Of a stretch of DNA of 64,000 bases, positions 47,770 through 52,556 are shown one piece after another; position 1 is the first letter of the stretch, and each line of letters begins with the position of its first letter. The position numbers were made by a program, and so were the translations under genes. A model generated the notes under the pieces. That model saw nothing but the letters and a program-made list of their open reading frames with translations. It ran no database searches and was not told the origin of the DNA. Source of the stretch: Crocinitomicaceae bacterium (GTDB lineage Bacteria > Bacteroidota > Bacteroidia > Flavobacteriales_D > Crocinitomicaceae); the NCBI GenBank assembly GCA_023957475.1, contig JAMLHA010000002.1:96465-160464 (forward strand), in the 5' to 3' direction.

Positions 47770-48402
47770 ATGAAAGAAGAACTAAATAAATTTTCAACTG
47801 TATTTGAACCAGAATTGCTTGTTGAAATTGAAAAACAAGCTTCAATTATTGAAATCGAAGAAGGAAAAACAATTCTTGATGTTGGTCAAGCTGTGCGCAC
47901 CATTCCGTTGCTTATTAGTGGGATTCTTAAAGTTTCTAGGTTTGATGAATCGGGGAAAGAATTGTTACTTTATTATGTGCATTCCAATGAAAGTTGCGCC
48001 ATGACTTTTACTTGTTGTATGCAACAATATCCAAGCGAAATAAAAGCTGTTGCCGAAACAAATGCAAAAATGATTGCCATTCCAATTGGTGTGATGGATG
48101 AATGGCTGTCTGTCTATCCAACATGGAAAAGTTTTGTTATGAAAACAATTCGTGGGCGCTTCAATGAATTGTTAAACACTATCGATCAATTGGCATTTCA
48201 AAAATTGGATGAACGGTTGATTACCTATTTAAAAGAAAAGTCACGTGCAACGGGTTCTGCGCTCATTAATCTATCTCACGAAGAAATAGCCAATGAATTA
48301 GCGTCATCAAGAGAGGTTATTTCACGTTTATTAAAGAAATTAGAGAACGACGGCAAGGTGTTGTTATACCGCAATCAAATCAAGCTGTTGAGTTCTTTGT
48401 GA
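47770..48402 (+). CDS. Crp/Fnr-family transcriptional regulator
   Basis: About 210 residues: an N-terminal cyclic-nucleotide-type sensor (IIEIEEGKTILDVGQ, IPLLISGILKVSRFDESGKELLLYY) with SCAMTFTCCMQQ, three Cys that could hold a cluster or react with thiol signals, then a long helix and a winged HTH (LSHEEIANELASSREVISRLLKKLENDGKV). Downstream lies the DUF2892-DUF6132-rhodanese operon. A GTGAC-AAAA-GTCAC palindrome overlaps this gene's stop and is positioned for activation of that operon. ATG 47770 is preferred to GTG 47764. The regulator is likely Fnr-like; cAMP binding is not supported. Confidence 0.88.
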   Translation: MKEELNKFSTVFEPELLVEIEKQASIIEIEEGKTILDVGQAVRTIPLLISGILKVSRFDESGKELLLYYVHSNESCAMTFTCCMQQYPSEIKAVAETNAKMIAIPIGVMDEWLSVYPTWKSFVMKTIRGRFNELLNTIDQLAFQKLDERLITYLKEKSRATGSALINLSHEEIANELASSREVISRLLKKLENDGKVLLYRNQIKLLSSL

Positions 48403-48415
48403 CAAAAGTCACGAA
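48396..48415. promoter_or_regulatory. Crp/Fnr-type operator
   Basis: TTTGTGAC-AAAA-GTCACGAA has GTGAC/GTCAC arms that are perfect and outer bases that pair with one mismatch. Its centre (48405.5) is about 42 bases before the start of transcription predicted from the -7 box at 48435-48442, the class II activator position. The site overlaps the stop codon of the Crp/Fnr gene. Binding is inferred. Confidence 0.65.
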
Positions 48416-48434
48416 ATAAACGATTCTAATTCTC

Positions 48435-48442
48435 TAATTTTG
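48435..48442 (+). promoter_or_regulatory. -7 promoter element of the DUF2892-rhodanese operon
   Basis: TAATTTTG (TAnnTTTG) lies 18 bases before the DUF2892 start. No -33 box is found, as expected for a promoter that needs an activator at the site centred on 48405.5. Confidence 0.55.
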
Positions 48443-48459
48443 TTTTAAAATTAAGCGTT

Positions 48460-48675
48460 ATGAATAGTATAAAGAATATTGGAACAATAGATAAAGCATT
48501 AAGAGTCAGTGCTGCATTGCTTATTGCAATTTTGTATTTTACTAATGTGCTATCGGGGACAGTAGCTATTATTCTGTTAATTTTAGCTGTGGTATTTATT
48601 GCTACAAGTTTCATTAGCTTCTGCCCATTGTATTATCCTTTTAGAATTTCAACTAGAAAAAAACAAACGAAATAA
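48460..48675 (+). CDS. DUF2892 family membrane protein
   Basis: A 71-residue protein with two membrane helices. The opener NIGTIDKALRVSAALLIAILYF and the end FISFCPLYYPFRIST match DUF2892, whose members are often fused to or encoded with rhodaneses and thiosulfate or sulfide genes. The Cys of FCPLY is conserved in the family. It is first in an operon of four genes under the predicted Crp/Fnr site. Confidence 0.8.
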   Translation: MNSIKNIGTIDKALRVSAALLIAILYFTNVLSGTVAIILLILAVVFIATSFISFCPLYYPFRISTRKKQTK

Positions 48676-48676
48676 A

Positions 48677-48880
48677 TTGAAGAAAATAGTACTGAAATAT
48701 AAATTAACCATTATTGGATTGATAGTGGGAGCAATAGGAGGTTATGCTTATTATTATTTTGTAGGTTGCGCTAGTGATTCTTGTGCGATTACTTCAAAAC
48801 CACTCAATAGTACGTTGTATGGTATGTTGATGGGTGTGCTATTGTTTACAAGTTTTAAAAAAGAAAAAACAACTAAATAA
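48677..48880 (+). CDS. DUF6132 family small membrane protein
   Basis: About 68 residues starting from TTG 48677, one base after the DUF2892 stop; the longer frame to 48599 would overlap that gene. It has two hydrophobic helices (LTIIGLIVGAIGGYAYYYF and LNSTLYGMLMGVLLF) around a GCASDSCAITSKP loop with two Cys, the hallmark of DUF6132. The loop probably faces the periplasm and could bind a metal or sulfur. Function is unknown; co-location with two rhodaneses suggests sulfur or redox work. Confidence 0.75.
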   Translation: MKKIVLKYKLTIIGLIVGAIGGYAYYYFVGCASDSCAITSKPLNSTLYGMLMGVLLFTSFKKEKTTK

Positions 48881-48887
48881 AAATAAG

Positions 48888-49145
48888 ATGAAATATAAAA
48901 CAATCATTGATGTTAGAACTCGTGAAGAGTATATGGGTGGAAATGTAGCAGGAAGTGTTAACATCCCATTGAATGAATTTGTAGATAGAATTGACGAAAT
49001 CAAGCAAATGCCTCAACCTATTGTATTGTGCTGCATGAGTGGTGCAAGAAGTGGACAAGCAACAGACTATTTGAAAAGTTTAGGAATTGAATGCGACAAT
49101 GGTGGTTGTTGGTTAGACGTTAATTTTATGGTAAAAAACAATTAA
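48888..49145 (+). CDS. Single-domain rhodanese (sulfurtransferase)
   Basis: 85 residues, a minimal rhodanese. DVRTREEYMGGNVAGSVNIPL is the CH2A-like opener and the active loop reads CCMSGARSGQA with the catalytic Cys. The longer reading frame beginning at 48834 would overlap the previous gene, so ATG 48888 is used. Typical reaction: moving sulfane sulfur to a thiol acceptor. The second rhodanese follows after 9 bases. Confidence 0.85.
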   Translation: MKYKTIIDVRTREEYMGGNVAGSVNIPLNEFVDRIDEIKQMPQPIVLCCMSGARSGQATDYLKSLGIECDNGGCWLDVNFMVKNN

Positions 49146-49154
49146 TGATATAAG

Positions 49155-49466
49155 ATGGGATTTTTTGCAAAATTATTTGGTCTTGGTCCAAAGGTAGATT
49201 ATAAAGAATTACTTCAGAATGGAGCTCAAATTATTGATGTAAGAACAAAACAAGAATACCAAGGAGGGCATATTAAAGGCTCTATAAATATTCCGTTACA
49301 ATCTTTATCTACCAACCTTTCAAAAATAAAGAAAGATAAAGCCATTATTACTTGTTGTGCTTCTGGAATGAGAAGCGCAAGTGCAAGAAACATTTTGAAA
49401 GCTAATGGATGTAAAGATGTTTACAATGGTGGTGGCTGGATGAGTTTGAATAGTAAATGTAATTGA
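49155..49466 (+). CDS. Second rhodanese (sulfurtransferase)
   Basis: 103 residues. A 20-residue N-terminal hydrophobic/helical part (MGFFAKLFGLGPKVDY) precedes IIDVRTKQEYQGGHIKGSINIPL. The active loop is CCASGMRSASA. It resembles the upstream rhodanese (about one residue in three by eye), which suggests an old duplication in one operon. The two may transfer sulfur in series. It is the last gene before a run of repeats. Confidence 0.85.
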   Translation: MGFFAKLFGLGPKVDYKELLQNGAQIIDVRTKQEYQGGHIKGSINIPLQSLSTNLSKIKKDKAIITCCASGMRSASARNILKANGCKDVYNGGGWMSLNSKCN

Positions 49467-51492: not shown

Positions 51493-52485
51493 TTATAGTT
51501 TTATGTAGTTAATCAAATCTACCAGTCGATTGGAATAGCCTGCTTCGTTGTCATACCACCCAACAATTTTCACCATGTTTCCAACAATACTTGTTAGCCC
51601 AGCATCGTAAATGCAACTTGCAGGGTTGCCCAAAATATCAATGGATACAATAGGGTCTTCGGTGTATTCTAAAATACCTTTTAGTTCACCTTCGGCAGCC
51701 TTTTTCATGGCCGTATTTATTTCTTCAATGGTAATTGATCCTTTGATAGACATAGTAATGTCAGACAAAGAGCCGTCTTTTACAGGAACTCTAACAGCTC
51801 CACCACCCATTTTTCCTTCAAATTCGGGGAAAATACGTGTAATGGCTTTTGCCGCACCTGTTGTTGTTGGAATAATTGATTCTGTTGCCGCTCTTGCTCG
51901 TCTTAAATCTTTATGGGGAGCATCGTGTAAACGTTGGTCAGCAGTATAACTATGAACCGTTGTAATGAATGCATTTTCGATTTCACAAATAGTTTTCATT
52001 ACGGCAATGAGTGGAGCTATGTTATTGGTTGTACAAGAAGCGTTTGAGATAACTGTTTCGCTACCATCTAACAAATCTTGATTGATGCCCATCACGATTG
52101 TTTTGACATCATTTGATGGAACGGCAGAAATGATTGCTTTTTTTGCTCCAGCAGCAATATGAGCACTTGCCAATTCCTTTGTTTTAAACAAACCAGTTGA
52201 TTCAATTACGATGTCGATATTAAACTGCTTCCAAGGAATTTGACTCGGGTCTTTTTCTTGTGAGAAAATGATTTTTTTCCCGTTTTCAAATACAAAAGCA
52301 TTGTCAACAACAGTGAACTTATGCGGATACACCCCATGAACACTATCGTATTTAAAAAGATGTGCCAATGTGTTTATATCAGCCAAATCGTTGACCAAGG
52401 CGATGTTTATACCTTCTTGTTGGAGAGCTATTTTTGTGAAATAGCGACCAATTCTTCCGAAACCATTTACTCCAACTGTTTTCAT
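51493..52485 (-). CDS. gap: Glyceraldehyde-3-phosphate dehydrogenase
   Basis: Glycolytic or gluconeogenic NAD-dependent enzyme. 330 residues. NGFGRIGRYFTKIAL is the Rossmann opener, VISNASCTTNNIAPL near residue 145 carries the catalytic Cys, and HSYTADQRLHDAPHKDLRRARAA binds phosphate. WYDNEAGYSNRLVDLI closes the domain. The sequence IVLVN..DLADINTLAHLFKYDSVHG is typical of bacterial GAPDH. Followed by coaD on the same transcript. Confidence 0.95.
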   Translation of the reverse strand: MKTVGVNGFGRIGRYFTKIALQQEGINIALVNDLADINTLAHLFKYDSVHGVYPHKFTVVDNAFVFENGKKIIFSQEKDPSQIPWKQFNIDIVIESTGLFKTKELASAHIAAGAKKAIISAVPSNDVKTIVMGINQDLLDGSETVISNASCTTNNIAPLIAVMKTICEIENAFITTVHSYTADQRLHDAPHKDLRRARAATESIIPTTTGAAKAITRIFPEFEGKMGGGAVRVPVKDGSLSDITMSIKGSITIEEINTAMKKAAEGELKGILEYTEDPIVSIDILGNPASCIYDAGLTSIVGNMVKIVGWYDNEAGYSNRLVDLINYIKL

Positions 52486-52506: not shown

Positions 52507-52537
52507 CAAAAGTACACAAAACAAAAGAGGTTGTCAA
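52507..52537 (-). promoter_or_regulatory. gap promoter
   Basis: Minus strand TTG (52535-52537), a 20-base spacer and TACTTTTG (52507-52514) match the Bacteroidetes promoter. The start of transcription would be near 52501, about 15 bases before the gap ATG. The -33 box lies inside the terminator hairpin of the neighbouring upstream gene. Confidence 0.5.
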
Positions 52538-52556
52538 TTTTGACAACCTCTTCTTT
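52520..52556 (-). terminator. Intrinsic terminator of the first type-B T9SS protein gene
   Basis: AAGAGGTTGTCA pairs perfectly with TGACAACCTCTT (12 bp, loop ATTT), followed on the minus strand by TTGTTTTG. It nearly copies the hairpin after the 5S gene. Confidence 0.85.

Follow-up and report, generated by a model that had tools for sequence, protein, structure and literature searches.

At a locus of a Crocinitomicaceae bacterium, the gene of a Crp/Fnr-type regulator is followed by genes for two small membrane proteins and two rhodaneses, and a palindrome lies between them, across the regulator's stop codon. This raised the question whether the regulator controls the genes behind it through this palindrome, and which signal it would respond to. 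The stretch of DNA analysed here (64,000 nucleotides, referred to as the window) is situated on contig C12 of a 3.14 Mb genome. Considered likely is a reading in which the protein is a class II Crp/Fnr activator of this operon and of a wider regulon, with a C-x5-CC motif that would sense reactive sulfur or a related thiol-oxidising signal.

The locus and its predicted operator

The regulator (210 aa) is encoded on the plus strand at 47770–48402, starting at ATG 47770, as assigned from Pfam, homolog alignment and predicted fold. It is preceded on the same strand by a COX15-CtaA gene (46037) and a gene for a hexapeptide-repeat protein of the PaaY/gamma-carbonic-anhydrase kind (47144). Behind it, again on the plus strand, are encoded a DUF2892/YgaP-like transmembrane protein of 71 aa (48460–48675; Pfam PF11127, 1.2e-19), a DUF6132 membrane protein (48677–48880; Pfam PF19628, 8e-07), whose reading frame probably starts at the TTG at 48677, and the single-domain rhodaneses A (48888–49145) and B (49155–49466), both matching Pfam PF00581.

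The putative operator, TTTGTGAC-AAAA-GTCACGAA, spans 48396–48415 (centre 48405.5), with the TGA stop codon of the regulator gene (48400–48402) inside its left half-site (TG-TGA-C). The only TAnnTTTG in 48381–48470 is TAATTTTG (48435–48442, plus strand), and a -33 box is absent, no TTG being present in 48401–48440. The first-pass annotation, which had described a palindrome over the stop codon, a single -7 box and a missing -33 box, was accurate on all of these points.

Binding at -41.5, which is the class II position for activators of the CRP type, is textbook knowledge for Crp/Fnr proteins. Because the TAnnTTTG box of Flavobacterium psychrophilum spans -12 to -5 relative to mapped starts (PMC9723704), transcription is predicted to begin at 48447 on the plus strand, which leaves a leader of 13 bases and places the centre of the palindrome exactly at -41.5.

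Within the window, TGTGAC-N4-GTCACA occurs with up to one mismatch at one place, against 0.09 expected. Allowing up to 3 mismatches gave 22 matches where 21.8 would be expected by chance, and the window contains as many as 56 generic 8+8 inverted repeats (4-base spacer, no more than one mismatch), so that the palindrome by itself proves little. The evidence from the window is modest, and the case for an operator rests on relatives. Before the gene of this regulator, no upstream copy of the palindrome that would point to autoregulation was found, the best match having 5 mismatches; a few relatives do carry such a copy. Separately, at L175/L114 (G031:C46) the Crp/Fnr regulator is read in one frame (about 330 aa) together with a DUF983-like membrane protein, behind a full operator-promoter, possibly a fusion with autoregulation in more distant homologs.

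Conservation of the site and its pairing with the regulator

Relatives of the regulator obtained by protein search belonged almost exclusively to Bacteroidota; the loci examined comprised 80 that carry a related regulator, plus 30 of the same family. A palindrome within 2 mismatches was present near the end of the regulator gene in 80 loci (68 non-redundant), in the conserved form TGTRAC-N4-GTYAC. When the 68 loci were aligned on the palindrome, the -7 box was the sole other strongly conserved element downstream: TTTG started exactly at +41 from the palindrome start in 55 of them and was displaced by one base (+40 or +42) in another 6, which keeps the geometry within one base in 61/68. No conserved -33 element was seen in this alignment, and TTTG was absent where such a box would lie. 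Whether relatives keep the palindrome before this operon had been named beforehand as one test of the idea; they do, and the proposed class II spacing without a -33 box is likewise kept across Bacteroidota. The conserved sequence geometry is that of a class II activator promoter, with an operator near -41.5 of the predicted start, a replaced -33/-35 element and a retained -7/-10 element.

The palindrome itself was found anywhere from over the stop codon to about 80 bases past it, and the -7 box moved along with it. Its spacing is thus constant relative to the -7 box and highly variable relative to the stop codon, as expected of an operator tied to a promoter and not of a terminator or hairpin that marks the end of the regulator gene. 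Some close homologs of the same family have no site beside the regulator gene (e.g. L092, L094–L097, L099 and L100), and several genomes of this kind carry full sites elsewhere, a full site being defined as the palindrome, 26 bases and TTTG.

The recognition helix of the regulator, SREVISRLL, agrees with CRP at R180, E181 and R185. Residue 182 corresponds to CRP Glu181, which contacts the very base pair that varies (G/A) among the sites considered here. Arg180, Glu181 and Arg185 make the specific base contacts of CRP (PMC12531629). In the homologs, residue 182 is E or V; E182 was found with TGTGAC in 36/38 cases and V182 with TGTAAC in 41/42. The pairing was maintained at loci in which the stop codon is not embedded in the half-site (9:1 versus 0:15), which are informative because the stop codon cannot dictate the base there. 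A tree built without the residue-182 column implied about 8 changes of the residue and about 9 of the half-site base, and its well-supported branches provided 3 independent pairs, which changed in the same direction or showed no difference, never the opposite. The Fisher value of the pairing (3e-19) overstates the independent evidence, since 3 well-supported pairs are too few for significance alone. The covariation nevertheless ties this Crp/Fnr protein to this predicted site, and would mean that the classic specificity position of CRP, Glu181, has been varied again in nature.

Co-occurrence pointed the same way: among 198 genomes of the phylum, a full site was present in 29/68 with the regulator and in 1/130 without it, figures that are inflated by kinship, and a reversed control pattern gave 4 and 5 hits, respectively. 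The counts for this comparison and for the family-wide one below were made by hand. That the regulator belongs to the site, as had been assumed, is supported across Bacteroidota by residue–base covariation and by co-occurrence. Genome comparison thus gives strong support to the site, its spacing and its pairing with the regulator.

As a further observation, the stop codon coincided in 55/82 loci, in an identical register, with the TRA of the left TGTRAC half-site, so that the same bases end the regulator protein and constitute its predicted binding site. The type of stop codon (TGA or TAA) tracks the predicted DNA specificity of the regulator (E182 or V182).

The predicted regulon

The genome contains three perfect full sites, and the reversed control gave none. 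One precedes the DUF2892-DUF6132-rhodanese operon described above, the second a DUF302 gene (C12:237727, L120) and the third a thioredoxin gene followed by a rhodanese-thioredoxin fusion (C31:95144, L121). In relatives (L009, L010, L012 and L017), the thioredoxin and rhodanese-thioredoxin genes are located inside the same operon, with the order DUF2892, OsmC, DUF6132, rhodanese, rhodanese, thioredoxin and rhodanese-thioredoxin; a small membrane protein and sometimes a ferritin-like/Dps gene are found ahead of the thioredoxin. The stand-alone thioredoxin pair with the same operator and spacing therefore gives independent support. The first-pass annotation had pictured a local sensor switching on this operon. 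The site at the operon is conserved, as this required, but "local" is too narrow, given at least two more loci in the same genome.

A site with one mismatch lies before a methyltransferase gene and a TauE/SafE exporter gene (L123), both of which probably belong to the regulon, judging from the site. Apart from this case, sites with 1–2 mismatches in the genome were rejected as evidence, as they were fewer (36) than in the reversed control (60). Two-mismatch palindromes (such as AGTGACAAAAGTCATA) located 26 bases before TTTG were also noted at C2:121736, C8:34529 and C12:177769 (L132, L136 and L140), at the genes of three paralogous small lipoprotein-like c-type cytochromes; these sites may be those of another regulator or weak members of this regulon.

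Family-wide, 105 full sites were counted, against 5 control hits. Genes linked to sites in other genomes comprised, by Pfam, DUF2892, rhodanese, TauE/SafE, MBL-rhodanese, Sulf_transp (YeeE/YedE), OsmC and thioredoxin, and, by eye, a CoA-disulfide-reductase-like protein, a peroxiredoxin, a sulfite-oxidase-like protein and a SulP-like transporter. The sulfur-related character of the targets, suspected from the one operon, recurs across Bacteroidota at the level of site prediction, and rhodanese, persulfide-dioxygenase-like and sulfur transport genes are the targets that would be expected of a sulfane-sulfur regulator. Some site-linked genes are not obviously related to sulfur; in Chryseobacterium and relatives (L074–L077), the same operator-promoter precedes a gene for outer membrane efflux (Pfam OEP), which would not be expected among the targets of this regulator family.

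The cysteine motif, the candidate signal and the mode of action

The protein is a member of the Crp/Fnr superfamily, with Pfam HTH_Crp_2 and Crp scoring above cut-off and a predicted structure that matches Crp/Fnr structures (E about 1e-13). The three cysteines in SCAMTFTCCMQQ, which the first-pass annotation located correctly and proposed as possible sensors, are Cys76, Cys82 and Cys83 (C-x5-CC). They are invariant in 109/110 homologs, in which they are nearly always the only cysteines of the protein; the exception, L087 (40% identity), retains the first. The motif is positioned at the cAMP phosphate-binding cassette of CRP. The region reads SCAMTFTCCMQQYPSE, equivalents of CRP Glu72 and Arg82 are missing and Pfam cNMP_binding scores below its gathering threshold, which does not correspond to a cAMP-activated CRP. 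Nor is the pattern that of a 4Fe-4S FNR, as the N-terminal cysteines are absent and Cys76, Cys82 and Cys83 are the only ones. The genome comparison, from which this invariance and the regulon content were read, instead offers three candidate cysteines, where a persulfide sensor needs at least two that are conserved and available for reaction. The monomer was predicted with a pTM of 0.59, and with a pLDDT of about 61–63 in the cysteine loop the model is too uncertain to show how the three cysteines are arranged.

To our knowledge, the regulators of persulfide and sulfane sulfur belong to other folds (ArsR, CsoR, NtrC (FisR), MarR, OxyR and PerR). A search of the open literature, with subscription papers and regulon databases outside its scope, returned no description of a cysteine-based Crp/Fnr reactive-sulfur regulon in Bacteroidota. 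In E. coli, YgaV, a cysteine regulator of the ArsR-family SqrR/BigR type, controls the rhodanese protein YgaP and is sulfide-responsive (PMC9774250). In both systems a cysteine regulator is found beside a rhodanese-DUF2892 gene, the domains fused in E. coli YgaP being separate here; YgaV, however, is an ArsR-fold repressor, whereas a Crp/Fnr fold at an activator position is predicted here. In staphylococci, the cst operon is a sulfur-handling gene cluster under the sulfane-sulfur sensor CstR, which like YrkD has the CsoR-type fold. The YrkD/NreBC cluster of Bacillus licheniformis similarly places sulfur-handling genes under a sulfane-sulfur sensor (PMC9918477). Both YrkD and CstR differ from the present case as repressors of another fold, in systems without a Crp/Fnr protein.

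Among Crp/Fnr proteins, E. coli CRP shares the fold, the three helix residues, a TGTGA-N6-TCACA site and the class II position, and differs in having its cAMP cassette where C-x5-CC is found here, and in that the regulon predicted here is small and specific. NtcA of cyanobacteria was the best NCBIfam match (3e-12, far below cut-off) and among the top structural matches. It binds GTA-N8-TAC, which resembles the TGTAAC-type sites of V182 homologs, but senses 2-oxoglutarate, governs a nitrogen regulon and has no such cysteine motif. The closest solved sequence (2.7e-29 by profile) was PDB 3dv8, a Crp/Fnr protein of Eubacterium rectale whose function is not described; it shares two of the cysteines (76 and 82, C-x5-C) and has a helix of related sequence, HREVITRML, but lacks the third cysteine and comes from another phylum. 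Its cysteines suggest that this sensor type reaches beyond Bacteroidota.

In the proposed mechanism, a disulfide or polysulfide bridge within C-x5-CC would fix the DNA-binding form of the dimeric protein, which would bind the palindrome at -41.5 and recruit RNA polymerase to the promoter with its -7 box and no -33 box. The two membrane proteins and two rhodaneses would thereby be turned on, and the DUF302 protein and the thioredoxin and rhodanese-thioredoxin pair through sites of the same type. Activation, and a signal of persulfide, polysulfide or other redox nature, are what we infer from this arrangement; persulfide or polysulfide appears most likely, because the predicted targets handle sulfane sulfur and because of the YgaV-YgaP parallel. 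We give about even chances to the broader proposal of a Bacteroidota-wide reactive-sulfur regulon under a class of Crp/Fnr sensors of its own, in which C-x5-CC replaced the cAMP cassette, persulfide or polysulfide chemistry replaced the ligand, and repeated E182/V182 switches re-tuned the operator between TGTGAC and TGTAAC. If true, a cysteine-based Crp/Fnr activator would fill the role of persulfide regulator for a large and abundant phylum, and the regulon would give context to DUF2892, DUF6132 and DUF302. The predictions for operator, promoter, start site and the three candidate cysteines are resolved to single bases or residues.

The main rival retains regulator and operator and has them respond to a general thiol oxidant, nitric oxide, a metal or heme, with rhodaneses and thioredoxins repairing the damage downstream. 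OsmC, Dps-like ferritin, thioredoxin and peroxiredoxin genes in the regulon would suit it, C-x5-CC could bind a metal, and the cysteine loop is of low confidence in the model. Most targets, however, are specific to sulfur transfer or transport (rhodaneses, MBL-rhodanese, TauE/SafE and Sulf_transp), and in E. coli the corresponding YgaV-YgaP system is sulfide-responsive (PMC9774250), so that this alternative is regarded as possible but the less probable account of the signal.

That the regulator represses, or blocks read-through from its own gene as a roadblock with the operator covering its own stop codon, is unlikely. The operator does lie at the regulator's end in most loci, and the cysteine regulators YgaV and YrkD of similar operons are repressors (PMC9774250, PMC9918477); the fixed -41.5 position and the lost -33 box are nevertheless characteristic of an activator site, and the promoter spacing is kept when the operator shifts off the stop codon. 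Binding of the site by another Crp/Fnr paralog is very improbable: the genome does encode two or more further clear Crp/Fnr proteins, but their recognition helices (TATETVIRLL and RVETVIRSL) differ from SREVISRLL, and both the covariation with residue 182 and the joint occurrence across the phylum link the site to the 47770–48402 regulator. That the palindrome forms an RNA hairpin or terminates transcription of the regulator gene, all else being coincidental, is scarcely credible, and the constant spacing to the -7 box largely refutes it. Although the transcript can form an 8-pair hairpin, it has no T run or terminator-like site, is no more stable than shuffles (z -0.88), and the same sequence recurs at the same promoter distance far from the regulator gene.

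Elsewhere in the window, a perfect inverted repeat, GGTTGTCAATTTTGACAACC, unrelated to the palindrome at 48396–48415, was noted at 52529–52548 between two minus-strand genes, upstream of a glyceraldehyde-3-phosphate-dehydrogenase-like gene (51493–52485).
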